Virus record (IMG/VR): IMGVR_UViG_3300032177_000090
Coordinates: 1-20,036 of that record
DNA length: 20,036 nucleotides
Source: a virus
Direction: 5' to 3' (one strand)
Of the stretch, positions 6,793 through 20,036 are shown piece after piece. Within the stretch, counting starts at the first letter, position 1; each line of letters starts with the position of its first letter. The notes beneath the pieces were generated by a model, which did not search any database, was not told the origin of the DNA, and saw only the letters and a program-made list of their open reading frames with translations. The position numbers and the translations under genes are program-made.

Positions 6793-7488
6793 TTATACTC
6801 CTGATTTCTTATTTAGGAACGTCTGAAACTCATCATGGAAATCGTTTGGATACCTGAGTCTCAACCTTTTCATTATGTAGTGGTTGGGTGTGTATGTTCT
6901 GGCTTCGGGTCTATTTTTAGATCCATTCAGACACACAATAGGAACATCCCCATCCCCACCAAAAATACCTATGAGCTTCCTCAAGTCTGATTCGAAATTA
7001 CTGAATCTGAGGACTTTTACCTGTGGATGTATGAGGTAGTGGTATTGTTCCATCCAGACACCACCATGAACTCTCGGAGCATCCAGAAATTGCTCCGGTG
7101 TGAGATTTCGAATCCGATCCTGCATTTCTTCTGGAAGGGATTCAAATTCGCCCGGTTTCCATTCATCACGGTATGTTTTATCTCCAACTGGTACGTCGCC
7201 CAAGATATCGGGAAAACTGTTTCTTAGGCGTACCGCAAACATCTTGGTGTAGTTGACTGCCGAAAAGAACCTCTCTACAGGATCCCGGTAGAACGCATAG
7301 TATGTAATCTGGCTTAGATCAACACCAGAATAACCATTGTGGACATGATCCTCGAATTCCATTGGCTTACCATGGTAGATTTCTTCCGGCAATTCCTTTC
7401 CATATGGAGCCAAATGGTAATCGACGGTTTGTGTGCCGGTCTTTGGAACAGCAATGAAGATGCTCTTTCTGTCATTGGAGAGTTTCAT
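6793..7488 (-). CDS. Sulfotransferase-like protein, copy 3 (231 residues)
   Basis: The protein carries the two sulfotransferase landmarks: PKTGTQT at 15-21, the loop that would bind the 5'-phosphosulfate of PAPS, and YRDPVERFFSA at 67-77, the 3'-phosphate-binding strand and helix. Their spacing fits the Sulfotransfer_2-like carbohydrate sulfotransferases. His48 and His50 (EFEDHVHNG) are candidate catalytic bases. At the C-terminus, YTPNHYIMKRLRLRYPNDFHDEF matches the end seen in small bacterial and phage sulfotransferases. There is no signal peptide or membrane segment, so it would act in the cytoplasm of the infected cell. The acceptor is unknown: the neighbouring adhesins, host glycans and small molecules are all possible. 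Its ATG overlaps the stop of copy 2 (ATGA). Of the three copies it diverges most in the C-terminal half. Confidence 0.85.
   Translation of the reverse strand: MKLSNDRKSIFIAVPKTGTQTVDYHLAPYGKELPEEIYHGKPMEFEDHVHNGYSGVDLSQITYYAFYRDPVERFFSAVNYTKMFAVRLRNSFPDILGDVPVGDKTYRDEWKPGEFESLPEEMQDRIRNLTPEQFLDAPRVHGGVWMEQYHYLIHPQVKVLRFSNFESDLRKLIGIFGGDGDVPIVCLNGSKNRPEARTYTPNHYIMKRLRLRYPNDFHDEFQTFLNKKSGV
6809..6816 (-). promoter_or_regulatory. Late-promoter-like box before the HEMEH gene and gp13 operon
   Basis: CTAAATAA on the minus strand inside the last codons of sulfotransferase copy 3, 21 bases before the ATG at 6787. Its nine bases with the preceding C (CCTAAATAA) are identical to those before the sheath gene. 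It would start a transcript through genes 13 to 17. Confidence 0.6.
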
Positions 7489-8051
7489 ACCTTGAATGTG
7501 ATGCCTTTACTGGTAAAGAAATCATAGTCCTCTTTGTATAGATCCTTGATGAAAGCTATCTCTTCAGCACTCAAATCGGCTGGCGTCTTCCTGTTTGGAC
7601 TTGCGTTCAATCTAGGAATGGGTGTGGTTTCAGGGATACCGATCTTGTTCATAACGGTTCGTAGTTCTGGTTCGAAATTCTCATAATTCAGTAGGTTGAT
7701 GTTCACTGTATCGTGCTTGAGCCATCTGACCTGTGGTGTAAACATCCCATATTCCATCACGTAGTCCATGACCGTATTCATAGGGCGCATCAGGAAATGT
7801 CGGTAGTTGTGTGACATGAATGAGAGGAACTTTTCAACCGGTTCCCGGTAAAATGCATACACATTGTACTCAAGAATATCCGGCACATCAGGACGAGCAA
7901 ACCTGAGTTGCTCTAGGCTAGGGTGATTGTTGTCACCGAAATACCTGATAGCCTGAATCTTATTATGATCCTTGAGGATATTACGAATGGTATGAGTCCC
8001 GGTCTTGTGCGGGTATAGGATGACTACGCGATTTTCTTGATCTATGTACAT
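7485..8051 (-). CDS. Sulfotransferase-like protein, copy 2 (188 residues)
   Basis: This small sulfotransferase-like protein has HKTGTHT at 15-21 (PAPS 5'-phosphosulfate loop, Lys16 retained) and YREPVEKFLSF at 68-78 (3'-phosphate site). His43 in GDNNHPSLEQLR sits where copy 1 has HW and may be catalytic. It is clearly paralogous to copy 1: both have Y/FAPQxxxL-type segments after the 3'-phosphate motif, a late LTAEEI or LSAEEI, and the ending DYDFFTSKGITFK. At 188 residues it is close to the minimum for a sulfotransferase fold, and no trafficking signal is visible. It starts 2 bases after the 151-residue adhesin-like gene and overlaps copy 3, so the three are presumably made together. The substrate cannot be read from the sequence. 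Confidence 0.82.
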   Translation of the reverse strand: MYIDQENRVVILYPHKTGTHTIRNILKDHNKIQAIRYFGDNNHPSLEQLRFARPDVPDILEYNVYAFYREPVEKFLSFMSHNYRHFLMRPMNTVMDYVMEYGMFTPQVRWLKHDTVNINLLNYENFEPELRTVMNKIGIPETTPIPRLNASPNRKTPADLSAEEIAFIKDLYKEDYDFFTSKGITFKV

Positions 8052-8053
8052 GG

Positions 8054-8509
8054 TTATTTCAGTGAATCTGCCGACATGAAATGGGATGCCGTTCCGACAA
8101 GAGTGGAATTCGAATTATAACGTAGACTGATATCCGATTGCACCGTAAGATTACCTGTGACGCTTTCAGCTATGGAGAGCCACCTATTGGTAGACATAGG
8201 CATCCATGAATTGTTCGCCCATCCTGATGAGAATGTGGCAAGTGAAGTTCCGCCAGTCCTTTTAGCGAGAATGTCAAAATCTGAAGAAGTGCCACCAGTC
8301 AACCATGCGTAAGATGCACCAACACTACCAGTTTCGGGGTTTCCAGTAAGTTGTCCTAGCCATGTTCCATTGGCAAAGAACACATCGTTAGCCTTCGCAC
8401 TATGAGTACCAACCGAATTCATTTCTCTCGCAAGAATTGATGCACTCGGACCCGTCACAGGTGCAGCTTGCGGTGGTCCGTATGAGAGCAGTATGAGTTG
8501 CATACTCAT
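8054..8509 (-). CDS. Small adhesin-like virion protein without Hint domain
   Basis: This 151-residue protein is not a recognised family, but it is related to the N-terminal part of the Hint protein at 9093-9968 and to residues about 340-420 of the 565-residue Hint adhesin. The shared pattern runs FDILAKRTGG, then NNSWMPM, a short R-W-L-S segment, and SLRYNSNSTLVG; the Hint proteins have LDIQMQKVTG and FDVRVTKITGG, then NTWIQL and NNSWLNL, then RFRSNS and EFRRNS. Here the protein ends right after the shared domain, with no CPxCCF or Hint. It may start at 8509 (MSMQL) or 8503 (MQLIL); I chose 8509 because it forms an ATGA overlap with the preceding sulfotransferase gene. It is probably a tail-associated adhesin or fibre-tip domain, inferred from its relatives. 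Confidence 0.68.
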   Translation of the reverse strand: MSMQLILLSYGPPQAAPVTGPSASILAREMNSVGTHSAKANDVFFANGTWLGQLTGNPETGSVGASYAWLTGGTSSDFDILAKRTGGTSLATFSSGWANNSWMPMSTNRWLSIAESVTGNLTVQSDISLRYNSNSTLVGTASHFMSADSLK

Positions 8510-9093
8510 TTGAAAGTAATTCCCTTAGAGGCAAAAAGATCATAATCCATCTTATAGAAATCCTTGACCGTGGTGATTTCTTCGGCAGTGAGGGATTCTC
8601 TAGGAATGATGCGTAGGGCTTCATTTCTCCACGGAACGTCCTTCTCAGTAATATCTAGTCCAAAAATAGCTGCCAGCCGGATCACTTCATTTACATAGTC
8701 ATCAAATCGAAACCATTCTATTTCGACACCTTCCATATGAAGAAAATGGTATTGTGGAGCAAAGAATCCCACCGCAATATCGTATTCTTCTATTGTCATA
8801 TTCTCGCGCATCAGATGAGGTACCATTCTATAGTGATGCCCCATACCAGAAAGAAACCTTTCTATCGGTTCCCTGTAAAAAGAGAACACACGGTACTTTC
8901 CAGCTATAACCTCTTCTTCGATATCGGGTGCCTCTATCAATACCCGCTTTAGACACCAGTTCCAGTGTTGGTTATCTTTTCCGAAGTCTAATTCTGATTC
9001 GATAGCACTATCATGGAACATCTTACTTAGAGAAGTAGAACCAGTTCTTGAATTGAGGATGACTATCAGTTTCCGCTTTCTATCAAGTATCAT
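8506..9093 (-). CDS. Sulfotransferase-like protein, copy 1 (195 residues), altered PAPS loop
   Basis: This is the first of three sulfotransferase-like paralogues. The 3'-phosphate motif YREPIERFLSG (73-83) is perfect, but the 5'-phosphosulfate loop reads NSRTGSTS (14-21), with Arg where the family normally has the catalytic Lys (PKTGTxT). Many related small proteins keep a basic residue here, so activity is possible but less certain than for copies 2 and 3. It shares with copy 2 the segment around His43 (DNQHW against DNNHP), the LTAEEI stretch and the ending DYDLFASKGITFK. Its ATG overlaps the stop of the Hint gene by one base (TAATG), and its own stop overlaps the small adhesin gene (ATGA). 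This places it firmly in one operon with virion adhesins. Confidence 0.78.
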   Translation of the reverse strand: MILDRKRKLIVILNSRTGSTSLSKMFHDSAIESELDFGKDNQHWNWCLKRVLIEAPDIEEEVIAGKYRVFSFYREPIERFLSGMGHHYRMVPHLMRENMTIEEYDIAVGFFAPQYHFLHMEGVEIEWFRFDDYVNEVIRLAAIFGLDITEKDVPWRNEALRIIPRESLTAEEITTVKDFYKMDYDLFASKGITFK

Positions 9094-9968
9094 TAGTACA
9101 CCAACATCCCATTAGCATAGAATCGTGGATTTGCGAAAGTATAGACCTCCCATGGGTAGTACATTTCGGTGATGGAGAGAATTTCATTCTCGGTGTCGTT
9201 TTGATCTATAGCAAAATCACCGACCGCAATCTTTGCTGGCACGGTAATATCCTTGTAATCAACTGTCGGGTTGATAGAAGCGAATCCTTTTCCGCGCACA
9301 TATATTGGATGGTCTTCGGATGCCTTCAAAACTCGACCATCTGCAAATTCAATCTCATACATTCTGGTGTATTCGCGAACGATTATTTCTGTTACGGCTA
9401 CCGGAACTCGTCCACCAATAGTCATGTCGTATCCGAGGATCATATCACCAACCATCACATCTGCAATACGTTTAGTGGTTCCATCTGCCATCGTGATCAA
9501 TGTATCTGGTGTAAAGCAACATGTCGGGCAACCAGTAGAGGTACCAGTGTTTTCTGCTGTCAGGGACCATGCGACATTGGCTGCGGTTATTTCCTGTTGT
9601 GTTGAATTGGATCGAAATCTCATCCAACCAGTAACAGTTCTAATACTTCCCGGTATACCAGTTCCTACACCCCATGCTTTAGGACCGTTCAATTGGATCC
9701 ATGTGTTTACGGCATTGCCTGTCATCGCTGCCGTACCCGTCACTTTTTGCATTTGAATATCCAGATCACCTAATGCCCTGCCAACCAGCCACCGATATTG
9801 AGAAGATGTTTGACCACCCCATGTACTAGTAACGACGGCATCAACAGTGGTAATATTCATCGTACTATTTACAATACCATGAGCTATATTCAATCGTGCA
9901 GTAGCATCCTGCACATATAAGACAAGTGCCTGTGGTGCAATCTTAGTCTTCGCAACATAATGGGTCAC
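9093..9968 (-). CDS. Adhesin-like protein with C-terminal Hint (Hedgehog/intein-type) domain, 291 residues
   Basis: Residues 1-145 hold the adhesin-like domain shared with the 151- and 565-residue proteins (LDIQMQKVTG, NTWIQL, WMRFRSNS, LTAEN). Residues 151-291 are a Hint self-processing domain. Cys151-Phe152 follows CPTC; CFTPDTLITMADGTTKRI is the N-terminal block; VGDMILG follows; SEDHPIYV (217-224, His220) is the block B histidine; and it ends RFYANGMLVY. Inteins normally end in His-Asn before a downstream extein. Here the protein stops at Tyr, so splicing is unlikely, and N-terminal cleavage or ester formation in Hedgehog fashion is the expected chemistry. The start is GTG at 9968, overlapping the preceding stop (GTGA); no other Met occurs before residue 37. 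The function in the virion is inferred. Confidence 0.85.
   Translation of the reverse strand: MTHYVAKTKIAPQALVLYVQDATARLNIAHGIVNSTMNITTVDAVVTSTWGGQTSSQYRWLVGRALGDLDIQMQKVTGTAAMTGNAVNTWIQLNGPKAWGVGTGIPGSIRTVTGWMRFRSNSTQQEITAANVAWSLTAENTGTSTGCPTCCFTPDTLITMADGTTKRIADVMVGDMILGYDMTIGGRVPVAVTEIIVREYTRMYEIEFADGRVLKASEDHPIYVRGKGFASINPTVDYKDITVPAKIAVGDFAIDQNDTENEILSITEMYYPWEVYTFANPRFYANGMLVY
9096..9518 (-). other. Hint domain 1 (Cys151 to end)
   Basis: This span encodes the self-processing domain. The nucleophile codon TGC is at 9516-9518, preceded by another Cys codon (9519-9521). The domain is 141 residues with no homing endonuclease inserted, i.e. a mini-Hint. The SEDHP histidine and the VGD turn are intact, while the C-terminal His-Asn pair of inteins is absent. 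Confidence 0.85.
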
Positions 9969-12892
9969 AGTATGTCACCAGATACGATTGCCGTAGCTGT
10001 TGTTGGATAGAAGACCGTTGCGACTGAGTATCTTGCTGTCAGATTAGAAGTCAAGAATCCGGCACTGTTCAACTTCGCAACACCGGTAGTGTTTGCAATA
10101 GTCACGTTACCTGTATTAGTGCGGATGATAGTGAATGCAAAGTTAGGAGTAGCTGCCGCCGCAATCGTTAGCGTGATAGCCGATGTGCTATTACACATCA
10201 ATACCGCACCAGCCGCATTGTCTGCGTAGGTTGCACTCCCTGTGACATTGATATGAGGAATAGAAGTACCACCACCACCAGTCGTGCCCTGAATGCCCTG
10301 AGTTCCGGTTCCAGTGATACCCTGAATACCCTGAATACCCTGAATACCTTGAATACCCTGTATGCCCTGTGAACCCGCACCACCCGCCGATTCAATGCTA
10401 CCTAATACATAGATTGCATTGGTAGCCGAGTATACAACCGTGACCGCTGCATTCTGTGAAGCAATGTTCGATGTGGTGAACGTAGTGCTATTTGACTTGA
10501 GTGCGAGGTTTGCAATCGTGACGTTGCCGGTTCCCTTACGAACAATCGTGTATGCGAAACCGGAAGTTGCCGAGTTAGCGATTGTGATTGTGAGAGCCGA
10601 AGCAGAGTTGACTTCAATGATCTTACCGGCTGCGTTGTCGTTGTAGTGGGTGCTTGCAGTAATGGTGATGATAGGTGTATCAAAGATATGATCTGTGAAT
10701 ACGGTGTTTGCATTGAATGTCACATCACCAGTAAACGTGCCGCCGCCGAATGGATTTCCAGTTAGACCCTGAATACCTTGAATACCCTGTACACCTTGGA
10801 TACCCTGAATACCTTGTGTACCAGCACCAGTGATACCCTGAATACCTTGGATGCCTTGAATGCCGGTAGCTCCCTGAATACCGGTGGTGCCTTGAACACC
10901 CTGAACACCCTGCGTACCAGTACCAGTTGTTCCCTGAATACCAGTCGTTCCTTGGACACCCTGAATACCCTGAATGCCTTGTGTTCCAGTGGTGCCTTGA
11001 ATTCCAGTGGTGCCTTGCACACCCTGAATTCCCTGAATACCAGTTGTTCCCTGAATACCAGTGGTTCCTTGCACACCCTGCCGACCTTGGATACCTTGGA
11101 TACCTTGTGAGCCTGTGATACCTTGAATGCCTTGGATACCCTGAATACCTTGAATGCCAGTTGTTCCCTGAATTCCAGTGGTTCCCTGTACACCTTGAAT
11201 ACCCTGAATACCTTGTGTGCCAGTACCAGTTGTTCCCTGAATACCAGTGGTTCCCTGTACACCTTGGATACCTTGAATGCCCTGCGCACCGGTTGCACCT
11301 TGCGTACCGGTACCAGTTATTCCCTGTATGCCTTGAATACCTTGTGTGCCTGTGATACCTTGGATACCTTGAATACCAGTAGTTCCCTGTACACCCTGAA
11401 TACCTTGAATGCCTTGTGCGCCAGTCGTGCCTTGAATACCCTGAATGCCCTGCGCACCCTTATCACCAGTTCGATAGAAACCAACCGCAGTAGAAAGTCC
11501 ATTCGTCGGCAGTGCGCCAGATACGAATGCAACAGGAACCTTGCAGTAGTTCGTAGCCGCAACAATTGCACCATTGATCTTCCACACATCTACAGTAGTT
11601 CCAGCATTCGAATTATCAGCGACAATCAAATACCCATCAGTTCCATCTGTTGTCGAGTCTGCCCACTGTGTAATGAATGCATTGACAGCAACAGAAGAAC
11701 TTGTATTGGATATGAAAATGTTGGTGACAGAAGCAATGGTTCCGTTGTTATATCTGTAAGTACCAGCACCGGGATCTGCATCTGTAATAGTGGTGGAGAA
11801 AGCATAGGTGAGTCCACCTTTGCTTCCTTGTGTTCCTAGAACACCCTGAATGCCTTGGATACCTTGAATACCAGTGGTTCCTTGGATACCCTGAATGCCT
11901 TGGATACCTTGTGTGCCGGTAGTACCTTGAATTCCAGTAGTTCCCTGTACACCTTGAATGCCTTGAATGCCCTGAGTACCAGTTGTTCCTTGGATTCCTG
12001 TGGTTCCCTGTACACCTTGGATACCTTGAATACCTTGTGCGCCTGTGGTACCTTGAATACCAGTCGTTCCTTGAATTCCAGTAGTTCCCTGAATACCCTG
12101 CCGACCCTGAACGCCTTGGATACCTTGGAGTCCTTGGATACCCTGAATGCCCTGTGTTCCAGTGATACCTTGAATACCTTGGATGCCGGTAGTACCTTGA
12201 ACACCCTGTATACCTTGGATACCTTGTGTGCCGGTAGTACCTTGAATTCCAGTAGTTCCCTGTACACCTTGAATGCCTTGAATGCCCTGAGTACCAGTTG
12301 TTCCTTGGATGCCGGTGGTACCTTGAATACCCTGAATGCCTTGAGTACCGGTTACACCTTGGATGCCCTGAATACCCTGAATGCCCGTGGTACCCTGAAT
12401 ACCTTGAATTCCTTGGGTGCCAGTAGTACCTTGAATGCCAGTCGTTCCTTGAATACCCTGAATGCCTTGGATACCCTGAGTGCCGGTTGTTCCTTGGATG
12501 CCGGTTGTTCCTTGAACGCCTTGAACGCCTTGGATACCCTGCACACCAGCACCAGTTGCACCCTGAATACCGAGTACACCCTGTATACCCTGAATACCTT
12601 GGATACCCTGAATACCTTGCGGTCCTGCGACGGTACCTGCAATGACAAAGGATATGTTTGCGTTGCCCGTTGCGCCAGAATTGACGCTTACGAGAATGTC
12701 GGATGTGTTGACAAAGTTGATGCCGTTGGCATTGATGGTCGAGGCAGAGTTTGCCGAGACTAGGAGCGTAGACAAACCACCGGCACCACTGCCACCTTCG
12801 CTCTTCCACGAATAACCGTCCCATGTCCACACGGTTCCGTCAGGAGCCGTGTAGGTGGTGTCGGGTGCAGGAGAAGGAGGGAAATCTGCCAT
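9965..12892 (-). CDS. Collagen-like tail fibre protein, 975 residues
   Basis: This is a modular phage fibre. Residues 1-35 (MADFPPSPAPDTTYTAPDG, then WTWDGYSWKS) are a common fibre N-terminus. About 36-90 holds a beta domain (NANGINFVNTSDILVSVNSG) also present in the partial fibre at the right edge. Collagen-like Gly-X-Y repeats (GIQ, GTT, GVQ, GTQ) run about 92-355 and 477-711, with a short third block near 840-870. Between the first two is a phage domain starting GLTYAFSTTITDADPG and ending FYRTGDKG. Two homologous domains of about 90 residues close the protein (TASTHYNDNAAGKIIEVNS and TGSATYADNAAGAVLMCNS), separated by the short collagen block. It probably trimerises. A late-promoter-like box lies 25 bases upstream. 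It occupies the slot where T4 keeps fibre and whisker genes, but the exact virion site is unknown. Confidence 0.88.
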   Translation of the reverse strand: MADFPPSPAPDTTYTAPDGTVWTWDGYSWKSEGGSGAGGLSTLLVSANSASTINANGINFVNTSDILVSVNSGATGNANISFVIAGTVAGPQGIQGIQGIQGIQGVLGIQGATGAGVQGIQGVQGVQGTTGIQGTTGTQGIQGIQGIQGTTGIQGTTGTQGIQGIQGTTGIQGIQGIQGVTGTQGIQGIQGTTGIQGTTGTQGIQGIQGVQGTTGIQGTTGTQGIQGIQGVQGTTGIQGIQGITGTQGIQGIQGLQGIQGVQGRQGIQGTTGIQGTTGIQGTTGAQGIQGIQGVQGTTGIQGTTGTQGIQGIQGVQGTTGIQGTTGTQGIQGIQGIQGTTGIQGIQGIQGVLGTQGSKGGLTYAFSTTITDADPGAGTYRYNNGTIASVTNIFISNTSSSVAVNAFITQWADSTTDGTDGYLIVADNSNAGTTVDVWKINGAIVAATNYCKVPVAFVSGALPTNGLSTAVGFYRTGDKGAQGIQGIQGTTGAQGIQGIQGVQGTTGIQGIQGITGTQGIQGIQGITGTGTQGATGAQGIQGIQGVQGTTGIQGTTGTGTQGIQGIQGVQGTTGIQGTTGIQGIQGIQGIQGITGSQGIQGIQGRQGVQGTTGIQGTTGIQGIQGVQGTTGIQGTTGTQGIQGIQGVQGTTGIQGTTGTGTQGVQGVQGTTGIQGATGIQGIQGIQGITGAGTQGIQGIQGVQGIQGIQGLTGNPFGGGTFTGDVTFNANTVFTDHIFDTPIITITASTHYNDNAAGKIIEVNSASALTITIANSATSGFAYTIVRKGTGNVTIANLALKSNSTTFTTSNIASQNAAVTVVYSATNAIYVLGSIESAGGAGSQGIQGIQGIQGIQGIQGITGTGTQGIQGTTGGGGTSIPHINVTGSATYADNAAGAVLMCNSTSAITLTIAAAATPNFAFTIIRTNTGNVTIANTTGVAKLNSAGFLTSNLTARYSVATVFYPTTATAIVSGDIL
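10278..10371 (-). repeat. Short collagen-coding repeat, third block of the 975-residue fibre
   Basis: About ten Gly-X-Y triplets (mainly GIQ) encoded by a 9-base unit with synonymous variation. They separate the two homologous C-terminal domains of the fibre. Confidence 0.85.
10763..11460 (-). repeat. Collagen-coding repeat block 2 of the 975-residue fibre
   Basis: Continuous Gly-X-Y triplets such as GIQ, GVQ, GTT, GTQ and GRQ. The DNA is a 9-base quasi-repeat in which Gly, Ile and Gln codons vary at the third base. It contains one copy (11067-11143) of a 77-base segment also present in the partial fibre gene at 19796-19872. Confidence 0.95.
11067..11143. repeat. 77-base segment shared between two fibre genes, copy A
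   Basis: Identical to 19796-19872 in the S74 fibre gene, although the surrounding repeats are only similar. It encodes the unusual GRQG triplet. Confidence 0.93.
11898..11995. repeat. Perfect 98-base direct repeat, copy A
   Basis: Base-for-base identical to 12213-12310. Both copies are in the same reading frame of the same gene; the flanking bases differ on each side. Confidence 0.93.
12213..12310. repeat. Perfect 98-base direct repeat, copy B
   Basis: Partner of 11898-11995, 315 bases (105 codons) away. Confidence 0.93.
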
Positions 12893-12917
12893 GATTTACT
12901 CTAAGGGATTTACCCTT

Positions 12918-12925
12918 TATTTATG
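12918..12925 (-). promoter_or_regulatory. Late-promoter-like box before the 975-residue fibre gene
   Basis: CATAAATA on the minus strand in the 34-base gap between the two large fibre genes, 25 bases before the ATG. Between box and ATG a small inverted repeat (AAGGG/CCCTT, 12903-12917, 5-base loop) could form a weak hairpin in the leader. Confidence 0.65.
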
Positions 12926-12926
12926 A

Positions 12927-15900
12927 TCACATATCGTGTTCAATGTAGGTGCTAATGTAATCCATTGCTACGAAAGACGCATTGGTGTTGTTACTTCTCC
13001 ACTCTTGAATTGTGAGCATCGTGTTAGGCGCAGGCAGATTCGTCGTATCGTCTGTGATGATCTTGAAGAACGAGTTAGTAGCCGGTGCCAACATATCAAT
13101 CACACCAACAGACACCGTAGTCGAGTTAGGTGCAGCAAAGATTGCCACATCCCACAAATTGACGTTACCGACGTTGCAATACAATCCTGTGTCGATGGTG
13201 ATGGCTGTGGCTTGTGCCTTGTTGTAGACAATCCATAGCGTGTTCGATGTAGCAATCTGACACACACCAATTACGTTGGTCATTGCCGTAGGTGAGGTTG
13301 CATTAGCAATCTGTCCAATCGTGTTGGATAGACCGACAAACATGAGTGCCTTGTCCACTGCAACCGCGTCTGCAACAGCAAAGCGAGCGACAAAGTGGAA
13401 TCCACCACCGCCTACAACGTTACCTCTCCACCACTGCGCGTTAGGATGACGAATAGCTACATTCGATCCGGCAGTCGCGGCAGAGACATAACCGATACGG
13501 CGAATACTCTGGAACAATGTTGCCGGTGATGCGATTCTGGAAGTAGCGGTTCCAGTAGCCGTAGGAGCGACCATACCGAGTGCAAGAGCAGTCGTGGTTG
13601 CGTTACCGACCCAACGCCACTGCGACCAACCATTTCTTCCCAAGAATGGTTGTAGTGCTGAATCCAAACCGGATGGACCCATGAATGCGGGCATCATTCG
13701 ACCACCAACCGATTTTGCGAAAATCGCTACCGTATTTGCTGGTGGAAGTGGTGGATTGGTGTTAGACTTGAACACCTGAATCGAAGTGTTTGGTGAATTG
13801 GTTCCTATACCAATTTTCATCAGAGAAGTCGCAGCATTGAAGGTGAGGTTAGAGTTACCTACGAGTGTTCCGCCACTATTGTAGATGATTTGTTCATCTG
13901 TGCCGATGGCAGCGAGACTTCCACTCGTGCCTTGTACACCTTGAATACCCTGACTACCAGAACCAGTGATACCTTGGATACCCTGAATACCCTGAGTTCC
14001 TGTGCCAGTAATACCCTGAATGCCTTGGATACCCTGTGTACCGGCACCTGTAATACCTTGGATACCCTGAATACCTTGTGTACCAGTAATACCTTGGATA
14101 CCTTGAATACCCTGAATACCTTGTGCGCCGGTTGTGCCTTGAATACCAGTGGTTCCCTGAATACCGGTAGTACCCTGAATGCCTTGGATACCTTGCGTAC
14201 CGGCACCAGTAGTTCCCTGAATACCTTGGATACCTTGAGTACCCGCGCCTGTGATACCTTGGATGCCTTGCACACCTTGGATACCCTGAATACCTTGAGT
14301 ACCAGTTGTTCCTTGAATACCAGTCGTGCCTTGCACACCTTGGATACCTTGGATACCTTGTGTTCCGGTACCAGTTGTTCCCTGAATACCAGTGGTTCCC
14401 TGTACACCCTGAATACCTTGAATACCTTGCGTACCGGTACCAGTTGTTCCCTGTACACCTTGGATGCCTTGAATACCTTGTGATCCGGTGATACCTTGAA
14501 TGCCTTGAATGCCTTGAATACCAGTGGTTCCTTGTATACCCTGAATACCTTGCGTACCGGCACCAGTGATACCTTGGATGCCTTGAATACCTTGCGTACC
14601 GGCACCAGTCGTTCCTTGAATACCCTGAATACCTTGTGTTCCGGCACCAGTGATACCTTGAATACCCTGAATGCCTTGAATACCAGTGGTGCCTTGGATA
14701 CCTTGAATACCCTGTGTTCCGGCTCCGGTGATACCTTGCACACCCTGAATGCCTTGGATGCCTTGTGCGCCAGTCGTTCCTTGAATACCCTGAATGCCTT
14801 GGATACCTTGATCGCCTGTTGCACCGGCTGCACCGCCGAGGTTCACATCCCATCTATTGAACGTACCAGCACCGGTTGCGGTTGCCGAGTTCATGACGAG
14901 GTTTCCATTTCCGCTGTAGTATGCGGTAACGGTTCCTTCCATCTTGTGTGTTGCGTCATTAGCCGCAACGACAGACTGACCAGCCGAATATGCTAGAGAT
15001 AGACCGATATCAAACTGCTTTGTGCCTGTTCCGATAGCAACCGAAGTCGTGGATGTGGTTGCATACTTGTCACCACCAAATCCCTGAATACCTTGAGTAC
15101 CTTGGATACCCTGTACGCCTTGGATGCCTTGAGTACCTTGCGATCCAGTGATACCTTGGATACCCTGAATTCCTTGTGCGCCTGTGATGCCTTGGATACC
15201 TTGGATACCTTGTGCGCCTGTGAGTCCCTGAATGCCTTGGATGCCTTGTGCGCCAGTGAGTCCCTGAATGCCTTGGATACCCTGTGCGCCTGTGATGCCT
15301 TGGATACCTTGGATGCCTTGCGTACCGGTACCAGTTGTTCCCTGTATACCTTGAATGCCCTGAGTTCCAGCACCAGTCGTTCCCTGAATACCTTGAATAC
15401 CTTGAGTTCCGGCACCAGTGATGCCTTGGATACCTTGGATACCAGTCGTTCCTTGTATACCTTGGATGCCTTGTGTGCCAGCACCAGTGATACCTTGGAT
15501 ACCCTGAATGCCAGTGGCACCTTGGATACCCTGAATACCTTGAGTACCGGCACCTGTGATACCCTGAATGCCCTGAATGCCTTGAATACCAGTGGTGCCT
15601 TGGATACCCTGAACACCCTGCGTACCTGCACCGGTCGCACCTTGGATGCCTTGTGTGCCGGTAGTTCCTTGGATACCTTGCACACCCTGAGTACCTTGTG
15701 TTCCCTGTACTCCTTGGATACCCTGTGCGCCATCGCCACCGAGGAATCCGGCTGTACCTTGCACACCCTGAATACCTTGGATACCCTGCGAGCCATTACT
15801 TCCGACAAAGCCTGCCGTACCTTGCACACCTTGGATACCTTGCGGTCCACCTGTCTGTGCTTGATTGCGCCATTGTTCTGTTGCAAATTCATAGACAAGA

Positions 15901-16772
15901 ACATCACCCGTATTTGGAGTGACTACATTGACGTTATGGAGGTCTTCAACGTCGCCTGCGGTTTTCGAATTGACGAAGATGATGCCTGCCGTTGCGTTAG
16001 ACACCACACAACGACCGAGGAATACTGCCGGAATTGGAGACTGCGGTTTGACGTTTACGATTCTACCGGCTTGTGATGGAGACAACCAGAGTCGGTCGCC
16101 CACAGCAAACGTACTGGTATCCAAATCGTGAATTTCACCGAAGACTGTAACGAACGCATTCGAATACATCGGCATGTTTTCTGTGGCAACACCGATTGTC
16201 GAGAAACCATCCAGTGCTGTGTTTGCCTGTGCCAACGACACATTCATGAATCCGGCAGAAGTATTGGCACCATAGACGATGACCGCATCACCATTCCAGA
16301 TATCTACACCAGAATCGTTGTGCGCCCGAATGTGGGTTTCCTGACCAACCTGTAGCGTGACGTTATTGCCACGAAGACCAATTCTCAACGTTCCCGCGTG
16401 AGGATCCCATTGAACAGAACCTTCATGGTCTGTCTCGATATTAGCCGAAGGGTCAATGTCTAGGTGATTGGTCTTGATGGATACGGCATAGAGTTCTTCT
16501 TCACCATAGTCTGCGGTACTCTTCCAATGTAGGTTGGGTGAAGTTGTGAATGGTCCACCAGAACTCTTGTACTGAATTTCACCTGTGTTGCCAGCCGCAA
16601 TCGCACCCACGCCGGTAGCACCCTGTACACCCTGAACACCCTGAATACCCTGTGCGCCGTTTGCACCGGTTTGACCGGGTGCGCCGGTTCTGATACCAAC
16701 GTTACCGATGGATGCGGTCTGGCTAACTTCTACCTTGCCAACCTGATTCTGTGGGCTAATCTCGACCTTCAT
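12927..16772 (-). CDS. Large collagen-like tail fibre or structural protein, 1281 residues
   Basis: The N-terminus (MKVEISPQNQVGKVEVSQTA) is followed by a short collagen segment and then a beta-rich domain to about residue 307, ending in DLHNVNVVTPNTGDVLVYEF, a motif common in phage tail fibres of this kind. Collagen-like repeats cover about 309-563 and 651-950. They are split by a domain of about 85 residues (KYATTSTTSVAIGTGTKQFD to RWDVNLGGAAG) that recurs beside collagen repeats in phage fibres. The last 330 residues form a globular C-terminal domain (AIGTDEQIIYNSGGTLVGNS to DYISTYIEHDM), which is the likely receptor-contacting tip. There is no S74 domain. The ATG overlaps the preceding gene's stop by one base (TAATG). 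The long threonine- and glutamine-rich repeats without proline are notable. Confidence 0.88.
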   Translation of the reverse strand: MKVEISPQNQVGKVEVSQTASIGNVGIRTGAPGQTGANGAQGIQGVQGVQGATGVGAIAAGNTGEIQYKSSGGPFTTSPNLHWKSTADYGEEELYAVSIKTNHLDIDPSANIETDHEGSVQWDPHAGTLRIGLRGNNVTLQVGQETHIRAHNDSGVDIWNGDAVIVYGANTSAGFMNVSLAQANTALDGFSTIGVATENMPMYSNAFVTVFGEIHDLDTSTFAVGDRLWLSPSQAGRIVNVKPQSPIPAVFLGRCVVSNATAGIIFVNSKTAGDVEDLHNVNVVTPNTGDVLVYEFATEQWRNQAQTGGPQGIQGVQGTAGFVGSNGSQGIQGIQGVQGTAGFLGGDGAQGIQGVQGTQGTQGVQGIQGTTGTQGIQGATGAGTQGVQGIQGTTGIQGIQGIQGITGAGTQGIQGIQGATGIQGIQGITGAGTQGIQGIQGTTGIQGIQGITGAGTQGIQGIQGTTGAGTQGIQGIQGTTGTGTQGIQGIQGITGAQGIQGIQGLTGAQGIQGIQGLTGAQGIQGIQGITGAQGIQGIQGITGSQGTQGIQGVQGIQGTQGIQGFGGDKYATTSTTSVAIGTGTKQFDIGLSLAYSAGQSVVAANDATHKMEGTVTAYYSGNGNLVMNSATATGAGTFNRWDVNLGGAAGATGDQGIQGIQGIQGTTGAQGIQGIQGVQGITGAGTQGIQGIQGTTGIQGIQGIQGITGAGTQGIQGIQGTTGAGTQGIQGIQGITGAGTQGIQGIQGTTGIQGIQGIQGITGSQGIQGIQGVQGTTGTGTQGIQGIQGVQGTTGIQGTTGTGTQGIQGIQGVQGTTGIQGTTGTQGIQGIQGVQGIQGITGAGTQGIQGIQGTTGAGTQGIQGIQGTTGIQGTTGIQGTTGAQGIQGIQGIQGITGTQGIQGIQGITGAGTQGIQGIQGITGTGTQGIQGIQGITGSGSQGIQGVQGTSGSLAAIGTDEQIIYNSGGTLVGNSNLTFNAATSLMKIGIGTNSPNTSIQVFKSNTNPPLPPANTVAIFAKSVGGRMMPAFMGPSGLDSALQPFLGRNGWSQWRWVGNATTTALALGMVAPTATGTATSRIASPATLFQSIRRIGYVSAATAGSNVAIRHPNAQWWRGNVVGGGGFHFVARFAVADAVAVDKALMFVGLSNTIGQIANATSPTAMTNVIGVCQIATSNTLWIVYNKAQATAITIDTGLYCNVGNVNLWDVAIFAAPNSTTVSVGVIDMLAPATNSFFKIITDDTTNLPAPNTMLTIQEWRSNNTNASFVAMDYISTYIEHDM
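13922..14815 (-). repeat. Collagen-coding repeat block 2 of the 1281-residue fibre
   Basis: About 300 residues of Gly-X-Y triplets, many organised in larger units GITGAGTQGIQGIQ or GTTGTGTQGIQG. In these GAG or GTG puts Gly at the third position, locally breaking the triplet register. Confidence 0.95.
15083..15846 (-). repeat. Collagen-coding repeat block 1 of the 1281-residue fibre
   Basis: About 255 residues of Gly-X-Y triplets. Around 15180-15310 there is a 36-base higher-order tandem unit encoding GLTGAQGIQGIQ or its GIT variant, repeated about four times. Confidence 0.95.
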
Positions 16773-17122
16773 TATCTGCTGACCTGTGGACTGATTGTAA
16801 TAATCCCCTCAAGTACGCGAATGACTACGTTGCTGCTAGGAGAGTAGGTGGTCATCTTCAAGTCATAGAGATAGCGTCCTGCCTTGATGTTGGCAGTATT
16901 GGCTGAATCCATGGAAAGGGATATCTGCCCATTGGTATTAGGTGCGACGATAGAAACGGCAATCGTGTTAGCCGTATTGGAGTAATACGACTTGCGAACT
17001 TGACATGCGAACGTAGGCTCACCGTTGCCGGTGTTAGCCAGATTCATAGGAGTACCATCATCGTTCGTTAGGTCGATGGTGGCAAAAGTTGTTCCTTGGT
17101 CTATGTTGAGTTCTGCGTACAT
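16772..17122 (-). CDS. Small beta-rich virion structural protein (116 residues)
   Basis: The sequence MYAELNIDQGTTF, with a C-terminal KAGRYLYDLKMT and RVLEGIITISPQVSR, is a small beta-sandwich protein seen beside tail fibre genes in many T4-like marine phages, usually annotated only as a structural protein. I chose the ATG at 17122 rather than the GTG at 17146 because AGAGGA (minus strand, 17131-17136) is well spaced before the ATG, and because a late-promoter-like box at 17148-17155 would start its RNA at about 17141, inside the longer version. The protein probably links fibre and baseplate, or forms an adaptor, judging by its place between two fibre genes. It ends one base inside the start of the 1281-residue fibre gene. 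Confidence 0.75.
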   Translation of the reverse strand: MYAELNIDQGTTFATIDLTNDDGTPMNLANTGNGEPTFACQVRKSYYSNTANTIAVSIVAPNTNGQISLSMDSANTANIKAGRYLYDLKMTTYSPSSNVVIRVLEGIITISPQVSR

Positions 17123-17147
17123 GCCAATATTCCTCTGAGGATCCACC

Positions 17148-17155
17148 CTATTTAG
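17148..17155 (-). promoter_or_regulatory. Late-promoter-like box before the 116-residue structural gene
   Basis: CTAAATAG on the minus strand in the short gap after the 565-residue adhesin gene, 25 bases before the preferred ATG at 17122. It sits inside the dyad ACCCT-ATTT-AGGGT (17145-17158). RNA would begin at about 17141, which supports the shorter start. Confidence 0.62.
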
Positions 17156-17157
17156 GG

Positions 17158-18855
17158 TTAGTAGACAAGCATTCCGTTAGCATAAAACTCCGATTCCAAG
17201 AAGGTGTAAACCGTATGTGGATAGTCGAGTTCTGTAATAGATACAATCTCATTCTCATCGTCATCAACGTCAATTACACGGTCGCCTACCTCTAGTTGCT
17301 GCGCCATACCCAAACTCTTGTAGACACCAACCGGGTTGATGGCTGCGTAACCCTTGTCCTTGACAAAGAGCGGATGGTCTTCGGATACGTTGAGGATTCT
17401 ACCATCGAAGAAGGTGATCCTGTACATCTCACGGAATTGCCGAGTGATGACTTCTGTAACCACCTTGTCTCCGCTACGAGAACGGATGGAATCACCGACC
17501 TGAACCATGTAGATAGGCTTCGTGGAGAAGTCTGCCATGGTGATGAGAGTCTCTGGCGTAAAGCAACAGAGTGGACAGCCGCCACTACCGTGAGTACCGG
17601 GTGTAGAATCGGCTTCTCCGGTCAGGCGCACCGTACTGCTCGACAACACAACACTGTCTGAATTTCTACGGAATTCGATGGTTGCAAGAGCAAATTTAGT
17701 ATTCGGTCCACCGGTAGGTGAAATCACATTCATAGACCATATTCTGTCTGCGTTCAGGTTCAACCATGAGTTATTTGCCTCACCCACCCATGCGATTGAG
17801 GTATTTCCACCGGTTATCTTCGTAACCCGAACATCGAAATAGGCTCCCAAAGTAGTGTCCGAAGGTTCAGAATCATGTCTCAACCATACATGTGCAGATG
17901 CAAGATTGGCATACGTGTGTCCAAAATATCCATTAGCTCCAACTATCAATTTGACGTTTGCATTGCACTGTCCACCATCTGTGGATATGCTGCTATAGAA
18001 CATATAGGTCAAACTATTCGCCATACCCAAACTGTCGGCACCCCGAAAAGTGAGCAAACTCACCGGAGCGGTAGCAGATATTGCCCCCGAATATCCAAAC
18101 GAATTTGTAGGCACACCATTTGCACCGGTTGTGAAGGATACTAATTGGTCTTTGTTAGGATCAATCGCATACCAATCAATGATTATCTGCCCATTAGCAC
18201 CGGCTTTTCCAGTACCGGTTGAACCGCCGCCGCCACCACCGGGGATGGTACCAGCAACATCTATTGCGCCTCCTACACCACCACCATAAGCGACACCACC
18301 TGCATTACCACCTGTAGTGGAAACACCAGTATTTCCGTTTGCCGAACCGGTTTCGACTAACGATAATGCGTCATATTGTCCCACATCCCAATAAGAATAA
18401 GACAGTGAAACATTACCACCATTGCCAACAAAGGAAGTTTTTGAAGGTTTGTATGCTCCCTTGCCACCTGTCGCGTATATGTTTATGGTATTTGTGGCTG
18501 GACCGCTATAAATGCGCAACATAGACTGGTCGCCAGCCGATGCATTAGTGGATGAACCAGCACCACCTTTACCTACTATTATAGAAAATGCGTTGGAAGT
18601 ACCACCAACTAATCCATAGAGTGTTTTCTTGAAGAATCCGGCACCACCACCGCCTTTATCTGCGCCGCCACCACCACCGCCCCATGTGCGTACATCACAA
18701 CTAACTGCCGTTGCAGGAATGCTGATGTTTATTCTAAAATTAGATGAAGCACTGGCATCATAGGTATCTGTCTGAAACGGCGTCGTGCAGGCAGAATACG
18801 TATTCGCAACTTCCGCTAGTGAAACAGGTAGTGTGTTGGCAACTCCGCGACTCAT
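17158..18855 (-). CDS. Glycine-rich tail adhesin with C-terminal Hint domain, 565 residues
   Basis: Residues about 50-230 are a glycine-rich phage adhesin domain (WGGGGGGADKGGGGAGFFKK, IIVGKGGAG, ATGGKGA, GGGGGG), a type found in receptor-binding tips of T4-like fibres. Residues about 340-420 carry the domain shared with the two smaller adhesins (FDVRVTKITGG, NNSWLNL, EFRRNSDS). A CPLC then precedes Cys431-Phe432, which opens a 135-residue Hint domain: CFTPETLITMADFSTKPI, VGDSIRS, SEDHPLFV (His494), GDRVIDV, and an ending SEFYANGMLVY. As in the other copy there is no terminal His-Asn and no C-extein. The gene starts 3 bases after the S74 fibre gene, with AAGGAAAG as ribosome binding site. Cleavage at Cys431 would release a 430-residue adhesin. 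Confidence 0.87.
   Translation of the reverse strand: MSRGVANTLPVSLAEVANTYSACTTPFQTDTYDASASSNFRINISIPATAVSCDVRTWGGGGGGADKGGGGAGFFKKTLYGLVGGTSNAFSIIVGKGGAGSSTNASAGDQSMLRIYSGPATNTINIYATGGKGAYKPSKTSFVGNGGNVSLSYSYWDVGQYDALSLVETGSANGNTGVSTTGGNAGGVAYGGGVGGAIDVAGTIPGGGGGGSTGTGKAGANGQIIIDWYAIDPNKDQLVSFTTGANGVPTNSFGYSGAISATAPVSLLTFRGADSLGMANSLTYMFYSSISTDGGQCNANVKLIVGANGYFGHTYANLASAHVWLRHDSEPSDTTLGAYFDVRVTKITGGNTSIAWVGEANNSWLNLNADRIWSMNVISPTGGPNTKFALATIEFRRNSDSVVLSSSTVRLTGEADSTPGTHGSGGCPLCCFTPETLITMADFSTKPIYMVQVGDSIRSRSGDKVVTEVITRQFREMYRITFFDGRILNVSEDHPLFVKDKGYAAINPVGVYKSLGMAQQLEVGDRVIDVDDDENEIVSITELDYPHTVYTFLESEFYANGMLVY
17161..17565 (-). other. Hint domain 2 (Cys431 to end)
   Basis: This is a mini-Hint of 135 residues without an endonuclease. 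The catalytic Cys codon TGC is at 17563-17565. It aligns along its full length with Hint domain 1, sharing CPxCCFTP, TLITMAD, VGD, SEDHP, INP, EIxSITE and FYANGMLVY, and differing mainly in the middle. It is clearly a paralogue. Confidence 0.85.
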
Positions 18856-18858
18856 GAT

Positions 18859-20036
18859 TTACTTTCCTTCAAGAACTTTGATACGTGCGCTCAACTCTTT
18901 GATTGCTTCGATGAGAACAGGGACCAGACGATCATAGGAGACACGCTTATATCCATCGACTTCGTGAATCAGTTCTGGCAATTGTGCTTCGACTTCCTGT
19001 GCCAGAATACCGACTTGTGGTTTGTCATCATTGATACCCAATGATTTTGCAAGTGAATTCCACTTGTAGCGAACACCATTGATAGTGGAGAGAATATCCA
19101 ATGGATTGTCGATGAATCCTAGAACATTCTTGAGGCGAGCATCCGATGCGGCTGCAAAGTCTGTGGCTGAAACAGTACCAGTCGATGCATTGAATGTGTA
19201 GGCTGTTGCCGATGTTCTGACCTTTGGTGTTTGGTTGGATCCGGCAGCGGCAACGCAAACTGGATATAGTGTCGCAGTCGATGTGTCGTTCGATGCATTG
19301 ATAGCCGTCGAAGGACCGGTCGCACCTTGCGTTCCAAGAACACCCTGCGTACCTGTAGTACCCTGCGTTCCGTTGGTTCCAGTGATACCCTGAATACCTT
19401 GAATACCCTGTATACCCTGTGCGCCGTTGGTACCGTTCGTTCCCTGAATGCCTTGGATACCCTGCGAACCTGTGATACCTTGGATACCTTGAACACCTTG
19501 CGAACCAGTTGTTCCAGTGATACCTTGAATACCTTGGATACCCTGTGCGCCAGTAGTACCGGTCGTTCCCTGAATACCTTGGATACCCTGAGAGCCATTG
19601 GTTCCTGTGATACCTTGGATACCCTGTGAGCCAGCGGTTCCTGTGGTGCCTTGAATACCCTGAATACCCTGTGCGCCGTTGCTACCACTGATGCCCTGAA
19701 TACCCTGTGTGCCAGTACCGGTGATACCCTGAATACCTTGGATACCCTGTGTGCCAGTACCGGTGATACCCTGAATACCTTGGATACCTTGCGCACCTTG
19801 CACACCCTGCCGACCTTGGATACCTTGGATACCTTGTGAGCCTGTGATACCTTGAATGCCTTGGATACCCTGCGCACCAGTGATGCCAGTTATACCCTGA
19901 ATGCCTTGAATACCTTGCGGACCAATCAGTGCCGGGTTAGTGTTGTCAACCGCGAACGATACGTTTGCGTTACCATTGACACCAGCACCGACAGTGACGA
20001 GGACGGTTGATGTGTTGCTGAAGTTGATGCCGTTTG
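18859..20036 (-). CDS. Collagen-like tail fibre with C-terminal S74 self-cleaving chaperone domain (5' end outside window)
   Basis: The frame is open to the right edge, leaving 391 codons plus the stop; the true start lies beyond 20036. At the edge the frame reads NGINFSNTSTVLVTVGAG, the same beta domain as near the N-terminus of the 975-residue fibre. Collagen-like repeats cover about 19324-19918. A beta segment follows (TATLYPVCVAA, then KVRTSATAYTFNASTGTVSA), and then the Peptidase_S74 intramolecular chaperone: SDARLK begins at the Ser codon 19144-19146. The Ser and the Lys five residues later match the self-cleaving dyad of endosialidase-type chaperones. KYKWNSL-like and GILAQEVEAQLPELI elements and a helical end (AIKELSARIKVLEGK) complete it. 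The domain helps the fibre trimerise and then cuts itself off. Confidence 0.93.
   Translation of the reverse strand, partial: NGINFSNTSTVLVTVGAGVNGNANVSFAVDNTNPALIGPQGIQGIQGITGITGAQGIQGIQGITGSQGIQGIQGRQGVQGAQGIQGIQGITGTGTQGIQGIQGITGTGTQGIQGISGSNGAQGIQGIQGTTGTAGSQGIQGITGTNGSQGIQGIQGTTGTTGAQGIQGIQGITGTTGSQGVQGIQGITGSQGIQGIQGTNGTNGAQGIQGIQGIQGITGTNGTQGTTGTQGVLGTQGATGPSTAINASNDTSTATLYPVCVAAAGSNQTPKVRTSATAYTFNASTGTVSATDFAAASDARLKNVLGFIDNPLDILSTINGVRYKWNSLAKSLGINDDKPQVGILAQEVEAQLPELIHEVDGYKRVSYDRLVPVLIEAIKELSARIKVLEGK
18862..19146 (-). other. Peptidase_S74 intramolecular chaperone domain
   Basis: These last 95 residues of the fibre form the chaperone. Autocleavage is predicted immediately before the Ser of SDARLK. 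GVRYKW, GILAQEVEAQLPEL and the C-terminal helix are the family's conserved elements. This is one of three self-processing domains in the window, but it is unrelated to the Hint fold. Confidence 0.92.
19324..19918 (-). repeat. Collagen-coding repeat block of the S74 fibre
   Basis: About 198 residues of Gly-X-Y triplets with spacers such as GTNGTN and GTTGTT. It includes a tandem 42-base duplication starting at 19700 (second copy from 19742), encoding a 14-residue unit with GTGTQGIQGIQ. Confidence 0.95.
19796..19872. repeat. 77-base segment shared between two fibre genes, copy B
   Basis: Partner of 11067-11143; both lie on the same strand and in the same frame. Confidence 0.93.

Follow-up and report, generated by a model that had tools for sequence, protein, structure and literature searches.

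The two proteins considered here are encoded by an uncultivated virus record of 20,036 bases (IMG/VR record IMGVR_UViG_3300032177_000090; the whole stretch is called the window in the following, and all positions refer to it). Both end in a Hint domain that has kept the residues for the N-side half of protein splicing and has lost those for the C-side half. We think it probable, at about 0.6, that each is a tail component with a C-terminal, single-turnover Hint autoprocessing module, which would carry out only the N-side half of the splicing chemistry. The window is, judged from its genes, part of the genome of a T4-like myovirus.

Both open reading frames lie on the minus strand where a preliminary description of this DNA, made from its letters and translations, had placed them, and its reading of the two C-termini stands. 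The motifs are CFTPDTLITMAD / CFTPETLITMAD, VGD and SEDHP, and either chain ends with FYANGMLVY directly before a TAA stop, with no His-Asn and no C-extein. Protein 1 starts with GTG, at the place of which its close relative L001 has ATG, and its only cysteines are residues 147, 150 and 151, of which Cys150 corresponds to Cys(-1), an invariant residue of the family described below. The two Hints are homologous (58% identity), as had been stated. They do not go back to a recent duplication within the window phage, however, because in a maximum-likelihood tree the Hint of protein 2 groups with those of L002 and L003, apart from that of protein 1; simple duplication of one Hint in this phage is not supported.

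By fold and catalytic residues the domains belong to the Hint superfamily, and a chance likeness is excluded by the agreement of sequence profiles and model. The Pfam Hint profile matches protein 1 above its cut-off (E 4.6e-7) and protein 2 below it (2.6e-5); protein 1 also passes the cut-off of TIGR01445, the intein N-terminal splicing region, and is matched weakly by Pfam PT-HINT (2.7e-4). When a profile of the family was compared with chains of solved structure, BIL2 of Tetrahymena, a bacterial intein-like (BIL) domain, came out best (E 4.5e-13), and the Clostridium BIL, the gp41-1 intein and Hedgehog were matched too. In the AlphaFold model of protein 1 most of the Hint has a pLDDT of about 90 or higher. 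Superimposed by VIA-align, this Hint gave a Z of 22.5 and a root-mean-square deviation of 1.8 over 141 residues with BIL2 (6y75_B), and Z values of 19.4 with the Ssp DnaB intein and 17.5 with Hedgehog. The entire list of structural matches consists of Hint structures; a non-Hint fold, the outcome that the preliminary description had named as speaking against it, was not seen.

The superposition also fixes the register. Model residue 151 falls on intein residue 1, and by this register and by alignment Cys151 and Cys431 are residue 1 of their Hints, as had been described. At the other end, Tyr291 coincides with residue 142 in BIL2, 153 in Ssp DnaB, 124 in gp41-1 and 439 in Mtu RecA, which is the penultimate residue in each case, one before the terminal Asn (N143A is named in the title of the BIL2 entry). 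The penultimate His has therefore become Tyr, and the chain ends one residue before the catalytic Asn.

Members of the family were gathered by scans of IMG/VR, some of which used the pattern CCFTP. The Tyr-terminated Hint was found in 31 other viral records and in one Desulfuromonadales bin. From 28 distinct sequences 20 remained after redundancy reduction at 90%, and the conservation counts refer to these 20, whose mean identity is 47% and whose minimum identity is 32%. Invariant (20/20) are Cys(-1), Cys1, Phe2, Thr6, Arg48, His70, Pro71, Tyr88, Val125-Tyr126, Phe133, Ala135-Asn136 and the last Tyr (Tyr141); at position 67, 19 sequences have Ser and one has Thr. The block A nucleophile at residue 1 and the block B motif [T/S]xxH are thus kept throughout. 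The Hint is always C-terminal, with 0 residues after the Tyr in all members, and 30 of the 31 other records contain only one.

Because some scans had selected on CCFTP, a second scan was made with the C-terminal pattern alone, namely the DNA of F[YF]ANGxL[VA]Y followed by a stop. All 21 viral stretches that it returned (22 copies) carry Cys-Cys1-Phe and [S/T]xxHP. The same pattern with His-Asn in place of Tyr-stop occurs in at least 120 stretches, of which the readable cases resemble ordinary inteins: the +1 residue is C, S or T in 71/76, and of the 71 cases that were scorable at block F position 4, 66 have D or N there, whereas the Tyr-terminated family has Thr (25) or Glu (3). Among 24 bacterial Hints taken as a control only 3 have Cys(-1) and most keep VHN, which is also present in the nearest bacterial relatives, L033 and L035. 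In the tree the Tyr-terminated Hints form one group (94/88), a result to be taken with some caution because the outgroup branches are long. The stops are TAA or TGA at the same place, and the start of the next gene is often only a few bases away, which leaves no hidden C-extein to be translated; read-through or frameshifting into one was rejected for this reason, and an assembly error at the C-terminus was rejected because the same end recurs in all these records. A tblastn search of cultured phages with four members yielded none of the exact Tyr-terminated subfamily, the matches being inteins, polymorphic-toxin-type proteins or subtilases.

The Hint is an add-on module that is mobile between unrelated tail proteins. 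It follows beta-rich domains, either alone or behind Gly-rich, cyanophage-type or HINVAGVW-repeat starts, and it is also found on MPLQ...-Ig-like proteins and on YN-repeat proteins (L116-L118). In L024 it starts just beyond the end of a match to the tail protein phrog_2048, and in L028, L030 and L115 it sits on subtilases (phrog_3677); the carriers include fibre-like proteins, a tail hub and subtilases. In keeping with an add-on, the window itself also encodes the beta-rich domain without a Hint (8054-8509). Moreover, the Hint is under strong purifying selection and far more constrained than the adjoining N-part. For example, the Hints of L014 and L021 differ by 32 synonymous and 1 non-synonymous change, the N-parts being only 53% identical. 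For several close pairs the ratio of non-synonymous to synonymous substitution rates (dN/dS) in the Hint is 0.007-0.06. Between the window and L001 the Hint is identical and the N-part has a dN/dS of 0.6.

In Hint chemistry Cys1 and the Thr/Ser and His of block B form a thioester at the N-side bond, and the terminal Asn is required for cleavage at the C-side (PMC4031507, PMC7664689). Since the phage Hints have the N-side residues without the C-side ones, they are predicted to perform N-side-only autoprocessing at the bond Cys150-Cys151 in protein 1 and Cys430-Cys431 in protein 2. N-side activation appears to be the likeliest activity because the Hint fold, the intact Cys1 and [S/T]xxH, the loss of the splicing end and the strong selection all speak for it. 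To this extent the earlier proposal of an activation through Cys1 is upheld; the bond named there, Cys-Phe, is one residue too far along, since what lies on the N side of Cys1 is the Cys-Cys bond. Cys1 would attack the carbonyl of the invariant Cys(-1) in an N-S acyl shift, by which the bond would become a thioester. With no Asn, no C-extein and a terminal Tyr in place of the penultimate His, neither C-cleavage nor splicing could follow. The thioester would most likely be resolved by water or by a thiol, possibly that of the neighbouring CPxC cysteines, with the result that a Hint of approximately 15.5-16 kDa would be shed and a tail protein ending in CPxC left. Such hydrolysis or thiolysis is the likeliest outcome because nothing after the Hint could bind an acceptor.

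The cysteine cluster CPxC-Cys1 suggests redox gating, the reason being that disulfides between Cys(-3) of the N-extein and Cys1 stop inteins, as engineered in Ssp DnaE and as native in P. abyssi MoaA (PMC3922620). The cluster would probably act as a gate, blocking Cys1 when oxidised and permitting cleavage when reduced; once free, its cysteines could in addition link chains to one another. Thioester formation, cleavage, the nucleophile, redox gating and the timing in assembly are what we infer from sequence and model. The presence of the module on unrelated tail proteins of many environmental phages suggests that self-cleavage or self-attachment serves to mature parts of phage tails.

It should be noted that some observations weigh against N-side autoprocessing in this form. 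At block F position 4 the family has Thr/Glu in place of Asp/Asn, and the N-side activity may therefore be slow or conditional. Cys(-4) of CPxC is missing in the group of L116-L118 and L247 and is displaced in the subtilase group; a gate specific for CPxC is thus not general, Cys(-1) being the one component that all members could share. A thiolactone between Cys(-4) and Cys(-1), considered as a general mechanism, is weakened by the same absences and displacements. Finally, the strong conservation could also mark a structural role.

If the role were structural, the Hint fold would be non-catalytic and serve for trimerisation, as a chaperone or for packing, and metal binding or inter-chain disulfides would be the task of the CxxCC cluster. 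Of the alternatives this survives best, although we consider it unlikely. It would fit the fibre-type setting beside collagen-like and S74 proteins, and a cysteine run before Cys1 that resembles a metal or disulfide site is also present in tail-fibre Hints of cultured phages (CNCDCNCNCSC in gp28 of phage JWF). A scaffold need not, however, keep Cys1 and the block B His in 20/20 divergent members, and the hub and subtilase partners differ from trimeric fibres.

Next comes a Hedgehog- or BUBL-like transfer, to which we also give a low probability. The thioester would be handed on to one specific acceptor, which could be a Lys or Cys in an adjacent tail subunit or else an amine or alcohol on the surface of the host, and the adhesin would become crosslinked or anchored covalently. 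Indeed, BIL2 of the Tetrahymena BUBL1 locus is the closest solved relative by profile and fold, Hedgehog too is built with a C-terminal Hint that retains the N-side residues and lacks those of the C-side, and a covalent bond would suit the tail location. But there is no acceptor-binding domain, the chain ending at the Tyr in all members, no partner gene was found that is common to all loci, and the N-terminal partners are diverse. A wider formulation, which we place after it as doubtful, would be that a mobile self-activating module makes tail proteins thioester-reactive at the C-terminus. Adhesins, hubs and proteases would then become attached covalently to a partner subunit or to the surface of the host, with reduction of CPxC-Cys1 as the gate, and a Hedgehog-like reaction would take part in virion maturation or host attachment.

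It is very improbable that the domains are functionless remnants of inteins or BILs decaying after loss of the C-terminus. The phage series from VHN-K plus a tail (L320-L323) via LVY-DEQK-stop (L325, L327, L331) to LVY-stop would agree with decay, but dN/dS is as low as 0.007, the members form one supported group with an identical end, TAA and TGA stand at the same place with the next gene often immediately behind, and no inactivated copies were seen among the family members. Least likely of all is a ligation in trans on the pattern of split inteins, with the Asn and the C-extein provided by another gene: these are the only parts missing, but every member has Tyr in place of the final His, a single Hint is all that 30 of the 31 other records contain, and there is no split site since the last Hint strand is present.

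Among known systems the BIL domains are closest, both by profile (BIL2 of Tetrahymena BUBL1, 6tmm and 6y75, E 4.5e-13; Clostridium thermocellum BIL, 2lwy, 1.3e-9) and by fold (Z 22.5 and 18.8). Like these, the phage domains have Cys1 and are small Hints without an endonuclease. BILs, however, keep the terminal His-Asn and a C-flank, by which, together with cleavage at both ends, types A and B are defined, whereas the phage Hints have Tyr for His, neither Asn nor flank, and an invariant Cys(-1). With the C-terminal domain of Hedgehog (1at0; Z 17.5) they share the C-terminal position of the Hint, Cys1, an N-terminal partner and the absence of a splicing end; Hedgehog has a sterol-recognition or adduct-recognition region after the Hint, the phage family has none, and the sequence match is weak (E 0.004). 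Viral and phage inteins, as in large terminase, ribonucleotide reductase, polymerase and helicase, have the fold and blocks A, B and F in common with the tail Hints. They are inserted within conserved enzymes, end with VHN followed by C/S/T and have D/N at F:4, whereas the tail Hints are C-terminal, lack the terminal Asn and C-extein, and interrupt no conserved host protein. PT-HINT of polymorphic-toxin-type proteins precedes a C-terminal domain and keeps VHN; here the Hint is the last domain.

Tail-fibre Hints as such are already annotated. In Achromobacter phage JWF, gp28 (YP_009224034, 'Hom_end-associated Hint family protein') is a tail-module protein with a C-terminal Hint without His-Asn, and the same holds for related proteins of Achromobacter phage 2-1 and Providencia phage PSTNGR1 (QPB11246 in the latter). 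The JWF and 2-1 Hints have cysteines before Cys1, as in the Tyr-terminated family; in L339:3080-4531 (JWF) and L334:3083-4525 (2-1) the runs CNCDCNCNCSC and CNCDCNCSC extend up to Cys1. They belong to a different subfamily nevertheless, which ends with VNGYLMTAG or FVNGYLVSS plus a tail of 13-20 residues and has no terminal Tyr and no CC before Phe. A radical SAM gene lies two genes downstream of the Hint genes of both phages. In the literature searched, only inteins in large terminase, ribonucleotide reductase and similar proteins were found for Hints in phages, none in tail proteins; no paper on the JWF Hint protein and none on a role of C-terminal Hints in virion maturation surfaced.

Within phages there is a graded series. 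In large virion proteins (L320-L323) the Hint has VHN-K and a short tail, and in a fibre (L305) it has SHN and a tail; in L325, L327 and L331 the end LVY-DEQK-stop comes after another Hint-like stretch, which is Cys-less and has HN; L330 has an internal Hint with HN-K; and the Tyr-stop family completes the series. The proteins of L325, L327 and L331 are of virion type with tandem Hint-like stretches, of which the first is apparently without Cys1 and ends with LLHN-K; an 8-residue linker with two Cys (KCAWSGFC, KCHTYPYC and KCTWSGFC) is followed by the second stretch, which starts with Cys1 and ends with LVYDE[QE]K. L330, a 162-kb phage contig with a second Hint-like match, encodes this internal Hint (L330:4001-4435), which starts with CC and ends with HN-K, within a protein of 1012 amino acids related to large tail proteins (phrog_358/877).

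Through these stepwise C-terminal losses (VHN-K, VY-DEQK, VY-stop) a connection between inteins, BILs and Hedgehog can be followed within phages, and the observation extends well beyond the two genes of the window. Should the N-side activity be real, phages would have a Hedgehog-like single-turnover domain in place of a protease for maturing or crosslinking parts of the tail, with a module that can be moved between unrelated tail proteins. A small Hint that acts only at its N-side, ends at the last strand and is perhaps redox-switched would be useful for C-terminal thioester ligation. Protein 1, with only 32 kDa, makes the role of C-terminal Hints on virion proteins directly testable.

The minus strand carries all large genes of the window (Table 1). 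In the direction of transcription the fibre module comprises the collagen-like S74 protein, protein 2, the tail fibre assembly-like protein, two long collagen-like proteins and protein 1, followed by sulfotransferase-like genes with a stand-alone beta-rich domain and then by neck and terminase genes. The large terminase is 49% identical to cyanophage terminases; a gp15-like protein, a terminase small subunit and neck proteins are also encoded. The order S74 collagen-like fibre, protein 2 recurs in L002-L004. Both Hint genes thus sit in a tail-fibre module, surrounded by S74 and collagen-like fibres, the assembly-like gene and T4-like neck and terminase genes. Of the earlier designation 'tail-type adhesins', the tail part is supported by this position, and a function as adhesin is putative. 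The N-terminal beta-rich domain, modelled alone, reached a pLDDT of only 61.8, had weak matches to viral proteins, gave no reliable match in the PDB with this low-confidence model as query, and has no relatives that were found in cultured phages. Its stand-alone relative in the window is approximately 25% identical and ends at the point where the CPxC-Hint would start.

Table 1. Hint proteins, their parts and associated genes in the window
Feature	Positions	Strand	Remarks
Protein 1, 291 amino acids	9093..9968	-	N-terminal beta-rich domain, C-terminal Hint
CPTC of protein 1	9519..9530	-	residues 147-150, abutting Cys1
Hint domain 1	9096..9518	-	residues 151-291; Cys1 = Cys151; block B S217-E-D-H220; terminal Tyr291
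Protein 2, 565 amino acids	17158..18855	-	Gly-rich domain (PF21722), beta-rich domain, C-terminal Hint
CPLC of protein 2	17566..17577	-	residues 427-430, abutting Cys1
Hint domain 2	17161..17565	-	residues 431-565; Cys1 = Cys431; block B S491-E-D-H494; terminal Tyr565
Stand-alone Hint-less protein, 151 amino acids	8054..8509	-	relative of the domain preceding the Hint in both proteins
Collagen-like fibre	18859..19803	-	C-terminal S74 self-cleaving chaperone domain; directly upstream of protein 2
phrog_1084 / L-shaped tail fibre assembly-like protein	16772..17146	-	directly downstream of protein 2
Long collagen-like protein	12927..16772	-	
Long collagen-like protein	9965..12892	-	

The two long collagen-like proteins (975 and 1281 amino acids; 9965-16772) consist mostly of GIQGIQG/GTTGIQG repeats and are probably trimeric fibres. 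Three sulfotransferase-like genes (Sulfotransfer_2) are packed directly downstream of protein 1 (6793-9093), the match of 6793-7488 being weak; the gene for the stand-alone beta-rich domain lies between two of them, an order that L001 keeps. The gp15-like gene is followed in the window by the small terminase gene and in L001 directly by an open reading frame resembling a GIY-YIG/NUMOD3 homing endonuclease (L001:7276-7815).

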